Shown: positions 15,474 through 26,593 of the stretch, one piece after another
Layout: every line of letters starts with the position of its first letter
Position numbering within the stretch: the stretch's first letter is position 1
Assembly: GCA_028685815.1 (NCBI GenBank)
Contig: JAQUDG010000007.1
Location: forward strand, 1-42,275
DNA: 42,275 nt
From: Desulfuromonas sp.
Lineage (GTDB): Bacteria > Desulfobacterota > Desulfuromonadia > Desulfuromonadales > Desulfuromonadaceae
Direction: 5' to 3'
Notes under the pieces: model-generated
What the model was told of the DNA's origin: nothing
Database searches by the model: none
Seen by the model: the letters and a program-made list of their open reading frames with translations, nothing else
Translations under genes and position numbers: made by a program

Positions 15474-15989
15474 TTAGACGTATTTTTTCTGCAGTATTTC
15501 TAAGATGGCCCGCAGCAGATTTATCGGCGTAGGGGGGCAGCCCTTGACGCAGGCATCCACAGGGATCACGTTAGCCACCGGCCCGCAACTGGCGTAGCTC
15601 ACGCCGAATTCTCCACCGTTGGTGGCGCAGTCACCCATGGCCACCACTAGTTTGGGTGCCGGGGTGCAGGCGTAGGTACGTTTTAACGCCTCCTGCATAT
15701 GCCGCGATACCACCCCAGTTACCAGCAGCATATCTGCATGACGGGGCGAGGCGACAAAGTGAATCCCGAAGCGCTCGATATCGTAGAAGCTGTTATTGAG
15801 AGCGTGCATCTCCAGTTCACATCCGTTGCACGAACCTGCATCCACCATGCGGATGGCCAAGCTTCCGCCAAAGCTGGCAGCGATCTCGCGCTGGCAGTGC
15901 TTCCCCAGCACTAAAATCTCATCTTCAGGTGCCCCGACTTTCTCGGTCAAGAATCCAGTTTTGCGAATTTTGTTCAGGATTGAAAGCAT
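15474..15989 (-). CDS. ehrS: Ehr complex small subunit (NuoB/HyfI-like)
   Basis: 171 residues homologous to the small subunit of Complex I (NuoB) and group 4 hydrogenases (HyfI/HycG). The ligands of the proximal [4Fe-4S] cluster are present: C54 and C57 in SCNGCE, C121 in MGDCATNGG and C151 in KGCPP. Two further cysteines, C135 and C147, are extra. The protein should therefore carry an electron-transfer cluster at the interface with the large subunit. AGGAAGA provides its ribosome site. It is the last gene, 57 bases after the large-subunit stop. It is named after the ehrABCDLS nomenclature used for Geobacter complexes. Confidence 0.88.
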   Translation of the reverse strand: MLSILNKIRKTGFLTEKVGAPEDEILVLGKHCQREIAASFGGSLAIRMVDAGSCNGCELEMHALNNSFYDIERFGIHFVASPRHADMLLVTGVVSRHMQEALKRTYACTPAPKLVVAMGDCATNGGEFGVSYASCGPVANVIPVDACVKGCPPTPINLLRAILEILQKKYV

Positions 15990-16046: not shown

Positions 16047-17684
16047 TTAAAGATCGTGTCCTGCATAGGAGCCATTAATCGATTTATTGCATACCGGAAA
16101 GTCAGGGATGATGTTGCCATGGATCAGCTCCTCTAGCGCCCGCCAGTTGAACCAGCTAGGATCCCGTGGGAAATATCGCTCCACCAAGCCTGCTTCGTTT
16201 AGGCGCACATAGGCGAGGGTTTCCCCGCGCCAACCTTCAACCAAACCTAACCCCGCCACATCACGTCCGTTCGGGGTGATCGCGGTACCAATGAGTCCAT
16301 CCGGCAGCGGGTGGAGCAGCTTCTCGATCAGTTCTGTAGATACTATGATTTCATCTCCACGTACCCTGGTACGCTTCGCTACATCACCTTCGGTATACAC
16401 CGGTACGCGTACCTCAAGGCTGGCATAAGGTGGGTATGGAGCATCTCGGCGCAGGTCATAATCGATGCCGTTCGCCCTGGCTACATACCCCAGGGTTCCA
16501 AGGCTGACTGCGGTCTCATGGGGGATAATGCCGGTGGTACGTAACCGATCTTGCAGGGAAGGGTATTCCAAGATCATGGGCATGAGTTCGGCAACTTCGG
16601 TGCGGAGCATGTGCTGCTCAGCCATTATGGCGGCAATTCCATCTGCATTCAGATCGCGGGTTACACCTCCGGGCTGAATGCAATCCATCAGCAGGCGATG
16701 GCCGAAGAGTTCCATACTCAGGCGTTGAACGCGCTCACGCAGGGCACTGAACTGCACCATGGCAAAGCTGAAGCCTACATCGTTACAGATCGCACCGATA
16801 TCTCCACAGTGATTGGCAATCCGCTCGCGCTCCGCCAGAATAGCGCGCAGCGCTAGCGCACGCGGGGGAATCACAACGTCTAAGGCGTGTTCCACCGCCT
16901 GACACGCAGCCCAACTGTGGGCGATGCTGCTATCACCGCTGACTCGGGCAGCGAGGCGAATCAACCCTGGGATATCCCGCCCTTGGGCAATTTTTTCAAT
17001 CCCCTTGTGCACGTAACTCAAGCGTTCCTCAAGGCGCAGCATATCCTCGCCGATGGTGTGAAAGCGAAAGTGCCCCGGTTCAATAATGCCAGCATGCACG
17101 GGGCCAACAGGGACCTCGTAGATATCCTCTCCCTCCATCTTTATAAACTGGTAGGTTTTGTCCGCTGGGGTGTCTTGCTCTGGAAATCCAGCCACGGGGA
17201 AATCCCTACGCAGCGGATATGCATCTGCCTTCCACGCTTGATGACGTGTCCACGGGCGTGGATCTGGATGGGCTTTGAAGATGATGCCGAACATATCGTG
17301 TACATGGCGCTCGGGTCGACTCGCATTGGGGTAAGTTTTTGCCTGAGAGGGTAGTTCAGGCTTTGAGTCCGGCACTGTTGTGCTAAGGACCAGATGTCCG
17401 TCTTTCCCGGCCAGCACAACCATGAGTATGATGCGTTCGGGAATGTGGTCAGCCCACACCCCAGCCCAGCGCAGCCCGCAGCGTTTGGCGATAACAGCTG
17501 CCTCACTCCAGCCCACAGCGGCGACGGCTATATGCGTAGCGGCCCCATTCGGAATCGTGTAATCGACGGTCATAGTCAAATTACTCCGATGCAGTTGCCA
17601 ACTGCAAGCCTGTATGGAAGCCTTGATGCCTGCTTCAATATCTGCTGTCTCCATCAACTCTTTTTTTAGCTGCGGAGTGGTCAT
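16047..17684 (-). CDS. ehrL: Ehr complex large subunit, fused NuoC+NuoD-like, lacking Ni-Fe ligands
   Basis: 545 residues from ATG 17684, which overlaps the upstream stop as ATGA. An open extension of 15 codons to 17729 is not needed. The first ~165 residues are NuoC/HycE-N-like (HVHDMFGIIFKAHPDPRP, then PLRRDF). The rest is NuoD/HycE-like, with GPVHAGIIEPGHFRFH. In real hydrogenases the next motif is RxCGxC. Here it is RVSGDSSIAHS (247-257), with S249 and S252 replacing both cysteines. The C-terminal DPCxxC reads DFPVCNKS (528-535), with only C532. Nickel binding is therefore not expected. This is the defining trait of Ehr complexes, intermediate between Complex I and group 4 hydrogenases. 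Confidence 0.92.
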   Translation of the reverse strand: MTTPQLKKELMETADIEAGIKASIQACSWQLHRSNLTMTVDYTIPNGAATHIAVAAVGWSEAAVIAKRCGLRWAGVWADHIPERIILMVVLAGKDGHLVLSTTVPDSKPELPSQAKTYPNASRPERHVHDMFGIIFKAHPDPRPWTRHQAWKADAYPLRRDFPVAGFPEQDTPADKTYQFIKMEGEDIYEVPVGPVHAGIIEPGHFRFHTIGEDMLRLEERLSYVHKGIEKIAQGRDIPGLIRLAARVSGDSSIAHSWAACQAVEHALDVVIPPRALALRAILAERERIANHCGDIGAICNDVGFSFAMVQFSALRERVQRLSMELFGHRLLMDCIQPGGVTRDLNADGIAAIMAEQHMLRTEVAELMPMILEYPSLQDRLRTTGIIPHETAVSLGTLGYVARANGIDYDLRRDAPYPPYASLEVRVPVYTEGDVAKRTRVRGDEIIVSTELIEKLLHPLPDGLIGTAITPNGRDVAGLGLVEGWRGETLAYVRLNEAGLVERYFPRDPSWFNWRALEELIHGNIIPDFPVCNKSINGSYAGHDL

Positions 17685-19147
17685 AACACACCTTTTCCCG
17701 TAATCATGATGGTGGCCTGATCGATCCAACCGGCTAGAACATCAGGCACGGCAATGCCGAGCCACAGAATAATGCATAGATGCACTGCCACCGGCCACAT
17801 GTTCGCTTTTACCTTAACTTGCCCTGTGGGACATTCCCCGAACACCATGGGCTGCACGTGGCGAAACAAGCCAGCAAAAGCTACACTCAGGCCGAACAGG
17901 AGTGAAATTACCAGCCAGGGGAAACTTTTAATGGTTGCGCTGAAGAGGAGGAATTCACTGGTGAAGACTCCGAAGGGCGGCAACCCGGCAATGGCTATCG
18001 TGCCGATGAGCAGCCCCCAGCCAATTTCCGGTTGGGTCTTTATTAAACCACGAATTTTGTCGATGGACTGGGTTTGACATACCTGTGCAGCATGGCCAAC
18101 GGTTATGAAAATCGCCGATTTAGTCAGGGAATGGACAATCATGTGCAGCAGGGCCCCGAATGTCGCCAGTGGGCCCCCAATGCCAAAGGCAAAGGTAATA
18201 AGTCCCATGTGCTCTATGGAAGAATAACTAAACATGCGCTTGATATCGCGTTGCCGGTGCAGGAGCAGACCCGCCACCAGAAAAGAGAGTAAGCCAAACG
18301 CCATCATAATATGTCCAGCTATATTGGAACCAAGGGCCGGGTCGATGAGCATCTTAAAGCGTACTACCGCATACAGCGCGATATTAAGCAGCAGCCCAGA
18401 GAGGATGGCCGACATCGGTGTCGGTCCTTCGCTGTGGGCGTCCGGCAGCCAGTTATGTAGGGGCACAAGGCCAATCTTGGTGCCATAGCCCACTATCAGG
18501 AATACAAATGCGAGCAATAAAACGGTGGGCTCAAGTTCTGATGCGTGCTCGTACAGCACACTCCACATCAGGGCCTGATTGTTGTCGGGCATAATCTGCA
18601 CCGCAGCAAAGTAGATCAGAGTCGTACCAAACAGCGCCTGGGCGATGCCAACCCCACAGAGAAGGAAGTATTTCCATCCTGCTTCGATAGATTTCGGGGT
18701 GCGATACAGGCTTACCAGCAATACTGTGGCCAGGGTTGCACCCTCTACCGCGACCCATAGAATCCCCAGATTATTGGTCAGCAGTGCCAGCAGCATGGTA
18801 AATAGAAACCCCTGATACATACTGTGATACAGGCGCATCCCTCCAGCTTTAACTTTTCCTATACTCTGTTCGTGTGCCATATACGGAGACGAAAAGATTG
18901 CGGTAGTCATACCGACAAAGGAATTAAGTAGCACCAAGTAGACGTTAAACGCGTCAACGTAAAAAAAGTTCTGCGGCGTGAGAATGGAACCATGGAAAAA
19001 CACATCAGCCGCCAACCGCAGCGATGTAATGAAGGTAGCGATACAAAAGAGCAGATTCAGCCTGCCGGCAATGCGCTTATGCCCGCAAAAGGCAAGCACC
19101 ACTGCGCCTGTCAGCGGAAGCAACAGGGTTAGGTAGAGAGCATTCAT
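17681..19147 (-). CDS. ehrD: Ehr antiporter-like subunit D (HyfF/NuoN-type)
   Basis: 488-residue polytopic membrane protein of the proton-translocating antiporter-like family (HyfF, NuoL/M/N). The conserved TM5 glutamate is in WVAVEGATLATVLLVSLYR and the TM7 lysine in GYGTKIGLVPLHNWLPDAHS, which is the signature of these subunits. These residues carry protons in Complex I, so the subunit probably couples electron flow to ion transport. It shares one base with the previous ehrC stop (TGATG) and its own stop overlaps the ehrL start (ATGA), so translation is coupled. Confidence 0.92.
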   Translation of the reverse strand: MNALYLTLLLPLTGAVVLAFCGHKRIAGRLNLLFCIATFITSLRLAADVFFHGSILTPQNFFYVDAFNVYLVLLNSFVGMTTAIFSSPYMAHEQSIGKVKAGGMRLYHSMYQGFLFTMLLALLTNNLGILWVAVEGATLATVLLVSLYRTPKSIEAGWKYFLLCGVGIAQALFGTTLIYFAAVQIMPDNNQALMWSVLYEHASELEPTVLLLAFVFLIVGYGTKIGLVPLHNWLPDAHSEGPTPMSAILSGLLLNIALYAVVRFKMLIDPALGSNIAGHIMMAFGLLSFLVAGLLLHRQRDIKRMFSYSSIEHMGLITFAFGIGGPLATFGALLHMIVHSLTKSAIFITVGHAAQVCQTQSIDKIRGLIKTQPEIGWGLLIGTIAIAGLPPFGVFTSEFLLFSATIKSFPWLVISLLFGLSVAFAGLFRHVQPMVFGECPTGQVKVKANMWPVAVHLCIILWLGIAVPDVLAGWIDQATIMITGKGVL

Positions 19148-19821
19148 CAGTCAACCTCTTTCAGGAGATTGAGTTTGTCGACATCGAGGGTGCCGAACTC
19201 CGTTCGAATCTGGAAAAAGAAGATGCCGAACAGAATGGCCGCCACCAGCACGTCTAGCGCCACCCCCATCTCTACCACCATGGGCATGCCTTGAGTTGCC
19301 GCTACAGCAGCGAACATCAGGCCGTTTTCCATGCACATAAATCCGACCACCTGCACCACCGCCTTCCGGCGTGAGATAATGAGCAGCATCCCCAACAGCA
19401 CAATCGCCAGCGATACCGCAATGGTGTTGCGGGTTGCCAGCATGGAAAGTTCGCGTATAGGGAGAACAGCATAATAACTGAAGAGCACCAGCGCTGCGGC
19501 CCCGAACATAATCAAGGATGGGTTGCCCACCACCTCAACTTCGCGTTTAATATCCAACCTGGTGACCAGTTTCTGCATCTGTATCGGGATAAAAAACACC
19601 TTTAATCCCAGGGTTAGAGCTGCTGAAATTAATAAATGGTGCCGCCCATAGGTGAATGCTATTACCAAGGTAGTAGCAAACAACAGGGCGCCCTGCAGTG
19701 CAAATATATGGATCAGGGTCAGCAGGCGGGTCTGCGCGAGAAGTAAAAAAGAGGTGAACAGCATGAGCGCCGCTAGGGTGAGAATTATCTGTTCCGCCAG
19801 GGTTAAGACTGTGAAATTCAT
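19147..19821 (-). CDS. ehrC: Ehr membrane subunit C (HyfE-like)
   Basis: 224-residue integral membrane protein resembling HyfE of hydrogenase-4 (an NuoJK-like module). Hydrophobic helices recur along the length, and the segment MCMENGLMFAAVAATQGMP in the C-terminal third is the NuoK-like part, with a membrane glutamate in MCMENG. It shares its first base with the last base of the ehrB stop, and likewise downstream with ehrD. No catalytic role is expected. It probably contributes to the proton channel. Confidence 0.85.
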   Translation of the reverse strand: MNFTVLTLAEQIILTLAALMLFTSFLLLAQTRLLTLIHIFALQGALLFATTLVIAFTYGRHHLLISAALTLGLKVFFIPIQMQKLVTRLDIKREVEVVGNPSLIMFGAAALVLFSYYAVLPIRELSMLATRNTIAVSLAIVLLGMLLIISRRKAVVQVVGFMCMENGLMFAAVAATQGMPMVVEMGVALDVLVAAILFGIFFFQIRTEFGTLDVDKLNLLKEVD

Positions 19822-20771
19822 CAGTGCACCTCCAGTATTACGTGGCCAAGCATCCCCAGCAGGGCGATTATGAAAGCCAGACTCAGAAGTTCCGGGGTGC
19901 GGAACAGGCGCATCTTGGCTAGGACCGACTCAGATGCCGCCAGCACGAAACCTATCCCCATTAGTTTTATCCCCAGAGTCAGCAATCCAACGGCGATGGC
20001 GGTCGGCTCGAGGTGCAGGGCGGTGCCCCAGGGGAGGAACAGGTTGCAGATTAAAACTCCGAATATCAGCATTTTCAGCATCGAAGCCCACTCCAGCAGC
20101 GCAAGGTGACGTCCACTGTATTCCAGAATCATGGCCTCATGTATCATGGTGAGTTCCAAGTGGGTGGCCGGATTGTCGATGGGGATGCGCCCACACTCAG
20201 CGACACCCACCAGCAATAGGCTCATACCGGCAAAAATAAACGATGGATAGATCTGGAACGGCTGAGTCAACGTATGGAGCACCATAGCGTCCAGATTGGT
20301 GCTGGTAAAGGTCATGGCTAGAGTGAAAATAGACAGCAGCATAGCCGGTTCTGTCAGAGATGAAATAGTAACCTCACGCGATGCACCCATTCCTCCAAAA
20401 GCGGTGCCGAGGTCCATCCCCGCCAGACATAAAAAAAAGCGTGCCAGCGCAAAGAAACCCACCATCACAATGACATCGGCAATGACAGCTGTAGGCAGGC
20501 CCACCGCAAACGCGGGAACGATTGAACTGGCCAGCACGGTTACACTGAACACCAAATACGGTGTGGCACGAAACAGCGGAGAAGCCTGTTGCGCCATAAC
20601 CACCTCTTTGCGAAACAGCTTGGCCAGATCGCGGTAGGGCTGCCACGGAATGGGGCCGCGCCGATTCTGAAATTTGCACTTCACCCATTTGATCCAACCG
20701 CTCAGCAAAGGAGCGAGCAAGATCAGAAGTGCTGTCTGCCCTAGTGCAAGAATCCAACCGCTCACATTCAT
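19821..20771 (-). CDS. ehrB: Ehr membrane subunit B (NuoH/HyfC-like)
   Basis: 316 residues, NuoH-like, the membrane subunit that in Complex I contacts the peripheral arm next to the quinone site. The motif PLLSGWIKWVKCKFQNRRGP near the N-terminus matches the HyfC/HycD form. The central FARFFLCLAGMDLGTAFGGMGASRE is the typical loop with acidic residues, and EYSGRHLALLEWASMLK follows. ATG 20771 forms an ATGA overlap with the ehrA stop and is preferred over ATG 20783. It sits between ehrA and ehrC as in hydrogenase-4 operons. Confidence 0.92.
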   Translation of the reverse strand: MNVSGWILALGQTALLILLAPLLSGWIKWVKCKFQNRRGPIPWQPYRDLAKLFRKEVVMAQQASPLFRATPYLVFSVTVLASSIVPAFAVGLPTAVIADVIVMVGFFALARFFLCLAGMDLGTAFGGMGASREVTISSLTEPAMLLSIFTLAMTFTSTNLDAMVLHTLTQPFQIYPSFIFAGMSLLLVGVAECGRIPIDNPATHLELTMIHEAMILEYSGRHLALLEWASMLKMLIFGVLICNLFLPWGTALHLEPTAIAVGLLTLGIKLMGIGFVLAASESVLAKMRLFRTPELLSLAFIIALLGMLGHVILEVH

Positions 20772-22774
20772 ATGACTATCCACAACATAACGATAAGAGT
20801 AAAAAAGGAATACGCCAGATAGGTGCGGATATTCCCACCTTGAATCTTGGTGACCATTTTCGCACTGCGCTGAATCATTCTGCCCAGAGGTAGATAAAGT
20901 TTTTCCCAGGCCCAGTCGCCGACGTGCACAGAATAACGTCCACCATCTTCTGCGGTGCTGGGAGGATCAACCCTCTCGTCTATAGGCCAAATAGGACGAA
21001 AAATACGTCGAATTGGCTGGGAAAAACTTGTAGCCGTATATTGGTTACGCGTACTCAGCGAGCCGAAACCGCAATCCCACCTGGGGCTGTAACGCACCGG
21101 AGTTTTTCGCCGCCGCGGATGTAACAGCAGATAGGCGCCAGCCCAGGCAATGCTTATACCAAACAGGACTAGAGGGGCACCATATGAGGACGCCCGTGCC
21201 GAAATGGGGGTGAGCCACAACCATCCACCGGATTCAACCTGACTCAGGCCGATACCTAGCAGGTCAGTGGGGATGGTTTGCATACTGTTGATTGCCGCGC
21301 TGGGAAAAATCCCCAGTAGCAGACAACCCGACGCTAGTAAGATCTGACTTGCACGCATGCCAAAAGAGACTTCGTGTGCCTGTAACGTATCCTGATGGCG
21401 CGCCTGCCCTAGAAATGCGATACCAAACACCTTGACAAAGCAGGCTGCAGCCAGCGCCCCCGTAAGGGCTAGCGAGGCGGCGGCCACCGCTATGATGGAT
21501 TTAGTGACCCCACTATCCAGCACTGTGCCTTGCAGAGCGGTCTGAAATGTGAGCCATTCGGAGACAAAACCGTTAAATGGCGGCAACGCAGAAATGCTGA
21601 TGCATCCCACCAGAAAACACATGGCAGTTATGGGCATGAGGCGCATCAGGCCACCCATCCGATTTAAATCATGCTGACCACTTTGATTGATAAGTGCACC
21701 CGCTCCAAGAAATAGAAGGCTTTTGAACAGGGCGTGGTTAATGCAGTGGTACAGTGCCGCTACCAGGCCTAAGGCCGCAAGGACAGGGTTTCCGTTACTG
21801 GCAAACAACACCGATAAACCCAGCCCCATGTAGATTATGCCGATATTTTCTACACTGGAGTATGCCAGCAGGCGTTTTAAGTCTTGTTGCATTAGGGCAT
21901 AGAGAATCCCCAACAAGGCCGACGCACACCCAACCAGCAGAATGATAACTCCCCACTGCCAGTGGAAGGTGCCAAGCAGACCGTAGCAGAAGCGGATAAA
22001 ACCATAGACTGCCACCTTTAACATCACACCCGACATTAAGGCTGAGATGTGCGAAGGCGCTACTGGGTGTGCCTGAGGTAGCCATACATGTAGGGGAACA
22101 ATCCCTGCTTTCATGCCAAAGCCGATAAAAGCTAAGGCAAAGGCGATATGTTGCCAGTGCACCGGCAGGGTTGCGGCCTGCATGTCAGTGAAGGTGAAAC
22201 CGGAGCCGAAGCCGGCCAAGACCCCGTACCCCAGCAGGATAAATAAGCCACCAACCTGTGCCATGAGCAGATAGATGAATGCTGCATCGACATTTTCTTT
22301 CTTGTGGTGGTCATGGGCTACTAGAAAGTAGCTCGCAACCGACATCAGTTCCCATGCAACCATGAACGAGAACGCATCGGCCGCCAGGATAACCAGATAC
22401 ATCCCAGCCACGAATAGACCGGTGAAAAATGCCAGGGTGCGCGCTGCGGCTAAATTACTGACACTGCCTATGACATAGCTCGGTCCGAACAGCGAGATGA
22501 TTGCCGTGACTCCCCCGACAATAAGGAGGAAAAAACCCGCCAACGGGTCTAGGTGTTGATGGCTGTTAAGCCATGGCAGACCAATGGGCAAAACCAGGTT
22601 TAAGCTGCAACCTGTGAGCATCCCCATGCATCCGCTCGTAGCTGTGGCCAGGCCAGATAAGCCCAACAAGGTAAACGCCATACGCGCTCCGGTGCTTATG
22701 CTGCGCACGGGGAGAGACACCGCCGCCGCTAGTAAAGCCAAAAACACTCCGAAATGAGCTAGATGTAAATACAT
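20768..22774 (-). CDS. ehrA: Ehr antiporter-like subunit A (HyfB/NuoL-type)
   Basis: 668 residues from ATG 22774. The frame is open another 33 codons, into the regulator gene, but CAGGA lies nine bases before 22774 and the product then starts directly with a hydrophobic helix. It is an antiporter-like ion-translocating subunit: WELMSVASYFLVAHD carries the TM5 glutamate, GFGMKAGIVPLHVWLPQAHP the TM7 lysine, and NHALFKSLLFLGAG a further lysine. The cytosolic C-terminal segment RWDCGFGSL followed by QYTATSFSQP is typical of HyfB/HycC. Two antiporter-type subunits (A and D) mean the complex could move more than one ion per electron pair. Confidence 0.93.
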   Translation of the reverse strand: MYLHLAHFGVFLALLAAAVSLPVRSISTGARMAFTLLGLSGLATATSGCMGMLTGCSLNLVLPIGLPWLNSHQHLDPLAGFFLLIVGGVTAIISLFGPSYVIGSVSNLAAARTLAFFTGLFVAGMYLVILAADAFSFMVAWELMSVASYFLVAHDHHKKENVDAAFIYLLMAQVGGLFILLGYGVLAGFGSGFTFTDMQAATLPVHWQHIAFALAFIGFGMKAGIVPLHVWLPQAHPVAPSHISALMSGVMLKVAVYGFIRFCYGLLGTFHWQWGVIILLVGCASALLGILYALMQQDLKRLLAYSSVENIGIIYMGLGLSVLFASNGNPVLAALGLVAALYHCINHALFKSLLFLGAGALINQSGQHDLNRMGGLMRLMPITAMCFLVGCISISALPPFNGFVSEWLTFQTALQGTVLDSGVTKSIIAVAAASLALTGALAAACFVKVFGIAFLGQARHQDTLQAHEVSFGMRASQILLASGCLLLGIFPSAAINSMQTIPTDLLGIGLSQVESGGWLWLTPISARASSYGAPLVLFGISIAWAGAYLLLHPRRRKTPVRYSPRWDCGFGSLSTRNQYTATSFSQPIRRIFRPIWPIDERVDPPSTAEDGGRYSVHVGDWAWEKLYLPLGRMIQRSAKMVTKIQGGNIRTYLAYSFFTLIVMLWIVI

Positions 22775-22814: not shown

Positions 22815-23501
22815 TTAATGTTGCGCGGAAAGAAGTTTTTTCTCAGCTGTCCGTATCGCCTTAATAACTTCATCGCGCCTTGGCTGAGTTGCCAGCATTT
22901 TTCTGAGAGCGGAATCTCGCAGCACCATGTGTAGTAGCGATAAAAGGTGCAGTTGAATGCGCAGTGACGGAGACACTACAATAATTAAGGTGTGAACCAA
23001 TTTTCCATCCAGTGCCGCAAACTCAACCGGGTGCTCCAAAAAGCATATATTGACCTTGGCACGGATAAGATGTTCCAGAATCGCATTGCGTGGGTGGGGT
23101 AGAGCGATGCCATCTCCTATGCCGGTAGAGGAGAGTTCTTCCCGAATGAGTAATACCTGTTTGAGCATTTTCAAGTCCGCCTCATCGGGCATTCGCAGAT
23201 GATTTACCGCATCTGCGAGTACTTCGTCCCGATTGTTGCCCGCCACTCTGTATATGATCCCTCCGGCACTAATTGAATCAGCCAGACTCGGGAGGGGCTC
23301 TTTTTCACCCTGAGTAATTTCAAAGGGCTCTTCAATGACATTGCGGCGCTTGGAAGTGGCCCAGTCAAGTAACTCCGCTCGCTTAAACCTATAGCTTCCG
23401 TGCACCTTATAGGTAGGAACTAGATTGCGTTTAATCCAACGGTAGACGGTTTTTTCGGATACAGACAGCAATTTGGCGGTCTCTTTGACGTTGACGTACA
23501 T
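22815..23501 (-). CDS. HTH domain fused to PTS EIIA-type domain (regulator)
   Basis: 228 residues. Residues 1-50 are an excisionase/MerR-type DNA-binding domain (VKETAKLLSVSEKTVYRWIKR, then GSYRFKRAELLDWA). Residues 78-228 are an EIIA (fructose/PtsN-type) domain with the phosphorylatable histidine H136 in GIALPHPRNA. Together these suggest a DNA-binding regulator that reads PTS phosphorylation state. It is the first gene of the operon, 40 bases before ehrA, and so probably controls or senses for the Ehr complex. No EI or HPr gene lies in the window. Regulation by phosphorylation is inferred. Confidence 0.88.
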   Translation of the reverse strand: MYVNVKETAKLLSVSEKTVYRWIKRNLVPTYKVHGSYRFKRAELLDWATSKRRNVIEEPFEITQGEKEPLPSLADSISAGGIIYRVAGNNRDEVLADAVNHLRMPDEADLKMLKQVLLIREELSSTGIGDGIALPHPRNAILEHLIRAKVNICFLEHPVEFAALDGKLVHTLIIVVSPSLRIQLHLLSLLHMVLRDSALRKMLATQPRRDEVIKAIRTAEKKLLSAQH

Positions 23502-24166
23502 ATTTCCCCTATCTGTAGCGCCTCCAAAACCCCTGAGATCGGTTGTATCGACCGTTCTACCCTTTATTACTTTAGGGTTTATCAGGTTTTTTGGATTTTT
23601 CAGATCTTAAAATTCCCTCGCGGGTTGATCGCGCAGGATTTCGTCCATAACGTTTTAGTTCAACAGGGCATATCTTCTATATACCTCTTATTTTGTCAAA
23701 TTTGACTATGGATTGACATATGTACACCTTAGTAGCATTTTTGCCCTAGAGTCAAATGGAAATATAAATATGTCGAATAACACAGAATGGTGCCAAGTAA
23801 GGAATAAATCAGCCATCAAGTTGTCATGACAAACATTCACCCTCCAGATCTCAGTTTCAAGTGCAGTTGACGTGGCGACAGTGCATCCCCAAGGTAGAAT
23901 GTGAGGGGCAGTGCTTTTAGTTACGCAAAGTGTTGTTTCGCGTCTGCTAGGTATCCGTCATTGCTATACGAGAGCCGAGGATGGTGAGGTTTGATGCGAG
24001 ACAGTTACCGCTGATACTAATGTTTGGACGCGTTTCTATTGAGTATCTATAGGAAGAACTATCAATTTGTAAGTGATTTGGTTATATTTGCCTCTGATAT
24101 GCTGAGAAATCTGGACTTCTCTCAGGTGTTTTACCCTTAAATTTGTAATCGATAGGATGAGCCGCT
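23502..24166. other. 665-bp divergent intergenic region between the ehr operon and the GGDEF gene
   Basis: No convincing gene. The region holds a perfect palindrome GTCAAATTTGAC (23695-23706), a TTGACA (23713-23718), another GTCAAA (23751-23756), and a set of small hairpins at 23883-23943 (CCCC/GGGG then TTTT, and ACGCAAA/TTTCGCGT). A further stem, CTGAGAA/TTCTCTCAG (24102-24125), lies near the GGDEF start. A 19-codon ATG frame at 23770-23829 has no recognisable product. Promoters for both directions must lie here, but I cannot fix their elements with confidence. Confidence 0.6.
23695..23706. promoter_or_regulatory. Palindrome GTCAAATTTGAC, candidate operator
   Basis: This is a perfect 12-base palindrome about 195 bases upstream of the HTH-EIIA start. 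Additional GTCAA/TTGAC half-sites lie within 50 bases (TTGACA 23713-23718, GTCAAA 23751-23756). Clustering suggests a binding site; the regulator is not identifiable from sequence. Confidence 0.4.
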
Positions 24167-25000
24167 TTGAATCTACTTTACTGCGCGTTGGTATTTGCTG
24201 GCACGGCTGCGTTGTTGTGCGCCCTGTGGGCAGTTGCCAGAATTCAGAGAATGTTGCCCAATACTAGGTTGGTAAAGGCGTGGCATGTGCTGTCAGGGTT
24301 TATCCTGCTGTTTATATGTAGCTATTTTTTCTACCTGATCGTCTTATGCAAAACCTGCAAAACTGCGGATGTAGTAGCTGTGCCTGAGATGTTTATTCCC
24401 GTTGTGTTTTTTACTGGGGGAGTTTTTGTGCTCATTGTATGTGAGTTGTTCAGTACCACCGCAGAAAAGTTGGTTCAGTTTAATCGGTTAGAGAGTGAAA
24501 GTATTACTGACCCACTAACCGGCACGTACAACAGGCGCCATATGCAATACTGTCTTGAAGGCCAGGCTGCATTTGCACGGCGCAACAAAACTCCTTTAAC
24601 CCTACTTCTGATAGATCTGGATCATTTTAAAGCGGTGAACGACACGTATGGACATTTGTGCGGAGATAATATTCTGTGTCAGGTTGCAGATAGTATAAGC
24701 GCTGTGGCTAAGCGCGATATTGACATGGTGTTTAGGTACGGCGGGGAAGAGTTTCTCCTTATGTTACCCCAGACACCTCTGCTCGGGGCCGCAACGGTGG
24801 CCGAATCTATACGCAGTAAAATCGCCCAAGCCCCGTTTAAGATGGAGTGCAACGGCCACGCCGTAGAAGTGCGTTGCGGTGTCAGCATTGGCGTTGGCCA
24901 GTATAAACCTGAGAGTGAAGATATTATGCATTGCCTGGAGCGGGCGGATAGCAAGTTGTATCTGGCGAAGGAGCAGGGACGAAATAGGGTGGTGTGGTAG
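24167..25000 (+). CDS. Membrane-anchored diguanylate cyclase (GGDEF)
   Basis: Makes cyclic di-GMP from two GTP. 277 residues: three hydrophobic segments at about 3-26, 40-61 and 76-95 place the cyclase on the cytosolic face of the membrane. A GGDEF domain runs from about 112 (DPLTGTYNRR) to the end (GRNRVVW). Active-site loop GGEEF (192-196) is intact, and the product-inhibition site RxxD is present (RDID, 183-186). The start is TTG 24167, supported by AGGATGA (24154-24160). No sensory domain beyond the short membrane part is visible. It converges on the sigma-54 activator with seven bases between them. Confidence 0.94.
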   Translation: MNLLYCALVFAGTAALLCALWAVARIQRMLPNTRLVKAWHVLSGFILLFICSYFFYLIVLCKTCKTADVVAVPEMFIPVVFFTGGVFVLIVCELFSTTAEKLVQFNRLESESITDPLTGTYNRRHMQYCLEGQAAFARRNKTPLTLLLIDLDHFKAVNDTYGHLCGDNILCQVADSISAVAKRDIDMVFRYGGEEFLLMLPQTPLLGAATVAESIRSKIAQAPFKMECNGHAVEVRCGVSIGVGQYKPESEDIMHCLERADSKLYLAKEQGRNRVVW

Positions 25001-25007
25001 CTATCTT

Positions 25008-26366
25008 TTAAGTCTCAATTCCTAGGCGCTTCATTTTTTCTACTAAGGTTGTGCGTTTAATATTCAGCAAAGCCGCAGCTTTTGTCTTTACCCCGGCGCT
25101 TAAGTCCAGCGCCTGACGTATCCAATCACGCTCAATCTGTTGGAGTTGAAACGCCATGTCCAGCCCTGAGTTTGGTAGGGTGGTGATCACTTGATAGTGC
25201 GGCTTGTTAATCCCCGAGATGTGCGTCGGCAGGTCTGCAATCTCTATTTTGGTGCTATCACACAATGCTGCAGTACGTTCGACGATATTCTCCAGTTCAC
25301 GTACATTCCCCGGCCAAGGGTATTGCTCTAGGACTCCGAATACATCGTTAGCAAAAACAAGAGGAGCGCATTTCAGGTTTTTGCAGCTCTTCTTGAGAAA
25401 ATGGCGCGCCAAGATAGAAATATCCTCTTTCCGCTCGCGCAAGGGGGGGAGATTTATCGGGATCACATTAAGGCGATAGAATAGGTCCTCCCGAAAGGTT
25501 CCGTTTGCGATCATCTCTTCCAAGTTAGTATTGGTAGCCGAAATAATCCGTATATCTAGTTTTATCGAATGGTTGGCACCGATTGGTTCCACCTCATGTT
25601 CCTGCAGAACCCGCAACAGCTTTAACTGTAGATGTACCGGCATGGTACCTATTTCGTCCAGAAAGATAGTGCCGCCGTTGGCTTGCTCAAATTTTCCGGG
25701 TTTATTCTTTACCGCCCCTGTGAAAGACCCGCGCATGTGGCCGAATAGCTCGCTTTCGAGCAGATCCTCTGGAATCGCTCCACAGTTGATAGCTACAAAC
25801 GGTTTATCCTGCCGAGGACCGTTATAGTGTAGCGCACGTGCTACCAGTTCTTTGCCCGTGCCCGATTCTCCCAATATAAGAATAGATGAATCGGTTTCCA
25901 CTACCTTCCCCATCCGGGTAAAGACGGCCTGAATCGCGGTACTGGTTCCGATAATATTGGAAAAACTATGATTGTTGTGAAGTTGGCGCCGCAGGAATAG
26001 GTTTTCTTCAATTAGTTTTTGTTTTTCCAGTGCCTTGGATATGATGAGTTTGATTTTGTCGATATTTATCGGCTTGGTAATATAATCAAAGGCACCGTTT
26101 TTCATGGCTTCAACGGCGGTCTCGGCAGAAGCATAACCCGTAATAAGAATTACCGTTGTCTGCGGGGCCTTATCCTGTAGATGTTTGAGAATCTCAAGTC
26201 CGCTTATGTCGGGTAGAATCAGATCGGTAATGACAATGGTGAAGCAGGTGTGGGCTAGAATCTCCAGTGCCGCTTCGCTATATCCAGCACGTTCCAGTGC
26301 GATACGAAGTAAATTGTTGCTTTGGATATCATCATCAATAAGCAGAATATCTGTTGTGTTGATCAC
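25008..26366 (-). CDS. Sigma-54-dependent response regulator (NtrC family) with short receiver
   Basis: 452 residues from GTG 26366, which has GGAGGG properly placed. GTG 26378 is an in-frame alternative. The receiver has an acidic DDD at 11-13 and phospho-site D48 in VITDLILPD. It is about seven residues shorter than usual between the acidic pocket and the phospho-site. The AAA+ domain has Walker A GESGTGKE, the sigma-54 contact loop GSFTGA (the usual form is GAFTGA), Walker B GGTIFLDEIG and arginine-finger region REDLFYRLNV. A Fis-type HTH (TKAAALLNIKRTTLVEKMK) closes the protein. No cognate kinase gene is adjacent. Confidence 0.92.
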   Translation of the reverse strand: MINTTDILLIDDDIQSNNLLRIALERAGYSEAALEILAHTCFTIVITDLILPDISGLEILKHLQDKAPQTTVILITGYASAETAVEAMKNGAFDYITKPINIDKIKLIISKALEKQKLIEENLFLRRQLHNNHSFSNIIGTSTAIQAVFTRMGKVVETDSSILILGESGTGKELVARALHYNGPRQDKPFVAINCGAIPEDLLESELFGHMRGSFTGAVKNKPGKFEQANGGTIFLDEIGTMPVHLQLKLLRVLQEHEVEPIGANHSIKLDIRIISATNTNLEEMIANGTFREDLFYRLNVIPINLPPLRERKEDISILARHFLKKSCKNLKCAPLVFANDVFGVLEQYPWPGNVRELENIVERTAALCDSTKIEIADLPTHISGINKPHYQVITTLPNSGLDMAFQLQQIERDWIRQALDLSAGVKTKAAALLNIKRTTLVEKMKRLGIET

Positions 26367-26593
26367 TGCGCCCTCCACCCATGCTAAGCCATTGCGGAAT
26401 TTTGCGTCATTTTTTTGACTAGAGTATCAGCCACGTCGACACTATGCCAGCTAAATAGCACATAAAGTGGTCTCAATTTGGCGTAGTTATACCGCCGCAA
26501 AAGTACGCTCATCCCACGGATAATGCTTAGATATCTGGTATTTTCACCCTAAATAATGGTTAAGATTGCATAGATGGTTGCAGGTGTTTGTGC

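Follow-up and report, generated by a model that had tools for sequence, protein, structure and literature searches.

EhrR, an HTH-EIIA fusion protein encoded ahead of Ehr operons, is a predicted PTS-controlled local repressor

In the 42,275-nucleotide window from Desulfuromonas sp. (the whole stretch of DNA that was analysed), the operon for an Ech-hydrogenase-related (Ehr) complex is preceded by the gene of a regulator, here given the working name ehrR, in which a DNA-binding domain is fused to an EIIA domain. We predict, and hold to be probable though well short of certain, that EhrR is a local, autoregulated repressor of ehr whose DNA binding is set by HPr-dependent phosphorylation of H136. 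This prediction rests on features read from sequence, namely the domain fusion, the invariant histidine, the linkage and the operator that are conserved across genomes, and the close gene spacing within the operon. The regulator gene and its parts are as follows.

22815-23501, minus strand: regulator gene ehrR (HTH_17-EIIA), an ORF of 228 aa
23349-23498, minus strand: HTH_17 or excisionase-type winged HTH, residues 2-51 (Pfam PF12728, TIGR01764)
22851-23258, minus strand: PTS_EIIA_2 domain, residues 82-217 (PF00359; fold match to PtsN 3urr)
23094-23096, minus strand: codon of H136, the predicted phospho-acceptor, invariant and aligned to the active-site histidine of PtsN
22947-22949, minus strand: codon of H185, a second active-site-type histidine (HLLSLL motif), H in 74/89 relatives

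The ehrR gene starts with ATG, and AGGGG, which resembles a Shine-Dalgarno sequence, lies about 8 nt 5' of it. The initial annotation had described the product as an excisionase-type HTH fused to an EIIA domain with a phospho-histidine at H136, and this description was borne out. Both domains score above curated cut-offs (HTH_17, 54.5 bits versus 27, and PTS_EIIA_2, 68.1 bits versus 27, in Pfam; TIGR01764, 40 versus 28.8, in NCBIfam), and H136, located within STGIGDGIALPHPR, aligns to the histidine of IPHG in the PtsN proteins of E. coli and Burkholderia. Substitution of H136, which had been named as a possible objection, was not seen: the residue is intact here and is histidine in 89/89 regulators and in 10/10 members of a ClC-linked sister branch (99/99 sequences). 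Its active-site surroundings G129, A133, R138 and D165 are conserved or nearly so, and H185 is substituted in 15/89 relatives. The AlphaFold2 model (22-row alignment) comprises two well-folded domains with a mean pLDDT of 86; the HTH part is modelled as helices plus a wing (pLDDT 80-89), and linker residues 57-66 are of low confidence. The top PDB matches of this model are PtsN structures, 3urr (TM 0.83 by target length) and 1a6j. Besides PtsN, Foldseek returned cytosolic domains of SLC4 bicarbonate/anion exchangers (5jho, AE1, AE2) at E values of about 1e-4 to 1e-3, model-based matches that would be in line with an EIIA-like fold serving anion-transport control.

Downstream of ehrR lie six ehr genes, HyfB-, C-, E-, F-, G- and I-like, all on the minus strand.

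20768-22774, minus strand: ehrA, HyfB/NuoL-like antiporter-type membrane subunit (PF00361, NF005086); start at the M of MYLHLAHF
19821-20783, minus strand: HyfC/NuoH-like membrane subunit (PF00146)
19147-19821, minus strand: HyfE-like membrane subunit (NF008556 at 99 bits, under the cut-off of 136)
17681-19147, minus strand: HyfF/NuoM-like antiporter-type subunit (PF00361, NF005045)
16047-17729, minus strand: HyfG-like large subunit (30K+49K) without NiFe cysteine pairs (PF00346, PF00329)
15474-15989, minus strand: HyfI/NuoB-like small subunit (PF01058)

The longest ehrA ORF begins at 22873 and would overlap ehrR, but the start that fits the family is at 22774. The gap of 40 nt between ehrR and ehrA that had been proposed from the sequence is thus right. 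The large subunit is group-4-like and is accompanied by antiporter-like subunits, as expected of an Ehr member; its L1 motif reads VSGDSS and its C terminus FPVCNKSINGSYAGHDL, so that the four NiFe-ligand cysteines are absent. This identifies the product as an Ehr-type complex rather than a hydrogenase, and assignment to [NiFe] hydrogenase group 4 (Hyf) was rejected. Likewise, 47/47 Ehr large subunits lack the NiFe CxxC pairs at L1 and at the C-terminal site alike. An inserted 2-kb gene found in many ehr operons was considered as a DAB2-type protein and rejected as such, since it clusters with HyfB-type antiporter subunits instead. As a separate observation, four group-4-type hydrogenase large subunits carry an in-frame TGA at L1 (L234, L235 and L236 from genomes G195, G173 and G062, and L237 from G022). 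The motif reads RIUGIUGYIHS, with both L1 cysteine positions affected, in three genomes and RIUGICGYIHS in one, suggesting selenocysteine at these positions, as judged from the reading frame.

The direct operon position had been taken to strengthen a functional link between regulator and complex, and comparison across genomes upheld this link. A scan of one genome per species found 281 relatives of EhrR; among the best 80 of these 281, Ehr-type genes lie beside the regulator in 70. Their hosts include Desulfuromonadia, Planctomycetota (with Candidatus Kuenenia), Verrucomicrobiota, Spirochaetota and Latescibacterota. Mostly, ehr follows downstream on the same strand; two linked loci are divergent (L046, L055), and in L087 the regulator lies in convergent orientation at the distal end. 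Across 61 same-strand loci, most distances from regulator to next gene are below 60 nt, and 14 loci show a -4 overlap of the ATGA type. A second sample comprised 297 genomes of the phylum, with strong homologues defined by more than 230 bits and linkage by an Ehr large subunit no more than 15 kb away. Here, 31/33 strong homologues were linked; in the genomes of the remaining two, a full-length Ehr large subunit was not found, and ehr genes adjoin one of these two homologues (L195). Conversely, 36/64 Ehr loci of the phylum sample have the regulator and 28/64 have none nearby, some of the latter on short contigs, indicating that the regulator is common and not obligatory. Judged from these gene neighbourhoods, the pairing of EhrR and ehr is more than chance and the link is real, with further support from a conserved operator. 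Second HTH-EIIA copies were observed beside the first regulator in some ehr operons of Planctomycetota, Verrucomicrobiota and Spirochaetota (L053, L062, L065, L094, L112), and in L104 from the same groups the additional gene encodes a stand-alone EIIA.

The predicted operator is a direct repeat, TGTCCA-N4-TGTCCA, with a 10-bp period, located on a sigma70-like promoter before the regulator gene. With a threshold of at least 10/12 matches, it was called in 64/77 upstream regions of regulator genes, compared to about 2% in shuffles; the other 13/77 fall below 10/12. Its commonest position is -49 relative to the start codon. The 10-bp period was found in 52/77 regions, and other half-site spacings in 0-9 regions, save for 20 at the harmonic of 20 bp. 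The element overlaps the -10 and/or the -35 of the promoter, and both are occupied in two loci (L070, L098). In a second class it is inverted over the -35 (TTGACAT-N3/4-TGGACA). Where regulator and ehr diverge (L046, L055), the operator is positioned before ehr instead of before the regulator gene, and in Geothermobacter (L085) it stands before each of two ehr operons, only one of which has its own regulator. Allowing one mismatch, an extended pattern gave 22 hits in 18 of 28 regulator-bearing genomes versus 2 for the reversed pattern, nearly all of the 22 at promoters of regulator/ehr loci. The strictest exact pattern, ATGTCCA-N3-ATGTCCA, was too strict, occurring in 7 of 297 phylum genomes, near chance, and no operator was seen at several regulator loci of the phylum sample (for instance L129, L134, L141 and L144-L146). 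The operator is thus strong in part of the family and not universal. Its pattern and positions point to a local regulator that would block RNA polymerase.

The canonical operator was not found within 220 nt upstream of ehrR in the window itself, where the best site reached 8/12. A position weight matrix (PWM) of the operator picked out one candidate.

23707-23758, minus strand: candidate diverged operator/promoter, TTGACT...TGTACATATGTCAA (operator PWM)

At 16.4 bits, this is the top PWM site of the whole window (next, 8.0), and dinucleotide shuffling of the intergenic region gave a P of about 0.001. It lies on the ehrR strand, about 205 nt upstream, with half-sites 8 bp rather than 10 bp apart, and we regard it as a candidate only, a weak and diverged site. 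In the tree the window EhrR has a longish branch, of 0.88 changes per column; a 10/12 site is present in the usual position in L037, its sister. Elsewhere in the Desulfuromonas genome, one-mismatch operator sites numbered 8 versus 11 in the reversed control, thus giving no evidence of a regulon; those inspected lie inside or beside unrelated genes. Past the ehrR upstream region, at 24167-26378, the window encodes a diguanylate cyclase on the plus strand and a sigma-54-dependent response regulator on the minus strand.

The initial annotation had also proposed that PTS-type phosphorylation sets expression of the complex, and this interpretation is partly supported. PTS phosphorylation of EhrR is plausible, as H136 is intact and invariant and both EI and HPr, the partners sought for it, are encoded in the same genome. 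This genome has a PTS-Ntr-type cluster, rpoN-hpf-ptsN-hprK-rapZ-EIIA(man)-...-EIID-HPr-EI, and also a fused EIIA-HPr-EI. Among regulator-bearing genomes, EI was found in 60/61 and HPr in 59/61. Since EI is present in 137/148 phylum genomes, its presence discriminates little and shows only that a donor is available; its co-occurrence was dropped as evidence for phosphorylation.

These features are most economically combined in a model of an autoregulated repressor that receives PTS input. The N-terminal MerR/excisionase-type winged HTH would bind the tandem TGTCCA half-sites, whose 10-bp spacing would place them on one DNA face, probably head-to-tail as in BldC. Bound EhrR would occlude the -10 and/or -35 of the sigma70-like ehrR-ehr promoter. 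The C-terminal EIIA(Ntr)-type domain would accept phosphate from HPr~P at H136, and the phosphorylation state would change DNA binding, so that Ehr synthesis would track the PEP/pyruvate or nitrogen state sensed by EI. The position of the operator on core promoter elements makes repression likelier than activation. We infer that EhrR would be the binder of TGTCCA-N4-TGTCCA, that it would repress, and that it would be phosphorylated, which may lead to release.

With the same operator and target, the EIIA domain could instead serve as a protein-interaction domain and not as a phosphate sensor, contact with a partner (for example one of the PtsN partners, an Ehr subunit or another ion-transport protein) releasing or recruiting DNA binding. 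E. coli EIIA(Ntr), which controls K+ transport through protein contact, offers a precedent, and both the replacement of H185 in 15/89 relatives and the adjacency of the HTH-EIIA family to membrane ion systems would fit. However, an H136 invariant in 99/99 sequences, within surroundings (G129, A133, R138, D165) that are conserved or nearly so, argues against the interaction reading, which we consider unlikely. Activation by promoter remodelling, as suggested by membership of the EhrR HTH in the MerR/excisionase superfamily, appears less likely again. MerR activators act between the -35 and the -10, whereas the operator covers either the -35 or the -10 together with the start region, rather than falling within a 19-bp spacer; the spacers were estimated by inspection at about 16-18 bp, and a coiled-coil dimerisation domain is not evident in EhrR. 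The element might also be the site of another, unrelated regulator, given that the canonical form is absent from the window and that its pairing with EhrR is predicted from sequence. Yet it tracks the regulator gene across several phyla, SulP loci (L050, L061, L075, L054) included, and has few occurrences elsewhere in these genomes, making this explanation very improbable. That an excisionase-like gene merely happens to precede ehr, as its excisionase-type HTH score might suggest, is refuted in practice by linkage in 70 of the best 80 of 281 relatives and in 31/33 strong homologues, in several gene orders. A true excisionase (recombination factor) was rejected as an identity for EhrR, a protein of 228 aa with an EIIA domain whose relatives lie beside ehr, SulP or ClC genes.

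The predicted repressor belongs to a family that extends beyond Ehr. Ten loci are unlinked to Ehr. In five of them the regulator is directly followed by a SulP permease (L050, L054, L061, L075, L103), and the SulP loci share the operator element (L050, L061, L075 and L054 among them); in two a carbonic anhydrase comes just 3' (L073, L076). The L081 regulator has a carbonic anhydrase about 2.8 kb 5' of it and 0.3 kb of contig on its 3' side, and L080 is cut by a contig end. The tenth, L041, has a gene for a DUF1275 membrane protein directly 3' (L041:8972-9709), and such a gene was also observed between regulator and ehr at L038:3700-4437. A more distant sister branch of HTH-EIIA proteins (L177-L186, 165-207 bits) is encoded directly ahead of ClC chloride channels, most of them with CBS domains, in 9/9 loci tested by Pfam, and the tenth looks alike; in several of these loci a protein of about 280 aa comes next, without a Pfam match in the single case checked. 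In the tree the ClC branch is a single clade, and the SulP cases are nested among Ehr-linked sequences of the Desulfuromonadia type. Regulators of the window-type Ehr operon occupy at least three places, indicating that the regulator stays in position when the Ehr subtype or the target is exchanged. The SulP, carbonic anhydrase and ClC contexts hint at a role of the family in controlling how ions or bicarbonate are handled. It is possible, and we put it forward tentatively, that HTH_17-EIIA proteins form a bacterial family of one-component PTS-linked repressors for ion and inorganic-carbon handling, the main branch acting on Ehr or else on SulP/carbonic anhydrase and the sister branch standing before ClC. 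If so, Ehr complexes would be placed in pH, ion or bicarbonate homeostasis under PEP/nitrogen-state control.

Ehr complexes are exemplified by Geobacter GSU0739-0745 (PMC7894505); the window holds a gene set of the kind described for them (HyfB/C/E/F-like, large- and small-subunit genes, NiFe cysteines absent). In the portions available of PMC7894505, PMC6349859 and PMC10284858, Ehr function is called unknown or uninvestigated and no Ehr regulator is named. None of the papers covered by a literature search described an HTH-EIIA protein regulating Ehr or SulP, which does not prove absence. Newly described here are the conserved predicted operator and, as a prediction from sequence comparison, the first switch for the orphan Ehr complex. 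For these widespread complex-I-like machines, a conserved regulator of their own, acting at a defined operator, would provide a handle on function: the condition lifting repression should show when Ehr is needed, and the operator could be used to find more members. The winged HTH-EIIA fusion with its direct-repeat operator, found in several phyla, would also add a compact coupling of PTS phosphorylation to transcription.

With EIIA(Ntr)/PtsN (PF00359, TIGR01419), EhrR shares the EIIA-2 fold and the active-site motif STGIGxGIAxPH. Unlike PtsN, it has a DNA-binding domain, and its genome encodes a separate ptsN; a PtsN equivalog (TIGR01419) was rejected as its identity, since it reaches 54.3 bits versus a cut-off of 138.7 and is fused to an HTH rather than stand-alone. 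PRD-type regulators (LicR, MtlR, LevR) are, like EhrR, transcription regulators with PTS domains; these domains are PTS-phosphorylated, with EIIA-2 in LicR/MtlR. In contrast to them, EhrR has no EIIB domain and a small one-HTH architecture, and it is a predicted repressor beside respiratory/ion complexes rather than sugar operons; this identity was likewise rejected, as no PRD match was found at E<=0.001 in Pfam. BldC, a small and pleiotropic MerR-like protein, consists of the winged HTH only, binds to direct repeats in head-to-tail fashion and has the consensus AATTXXXX(C) (PMC5859096). By analogy, both are MerR-like winged HTH proteins and the predicted EhrR operator is also a direct repeat; unlike BldC, EhrR has an EIIA sensor and a predicted operator, TGTCCA-N4-TGTCCA, local to one operon. 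EhrR is thus classed as a predicted PTS-controlled transcription regulator of a new kind of variant, nearest by function to the PRD-type regulators and PtsN and meeting neither definition.
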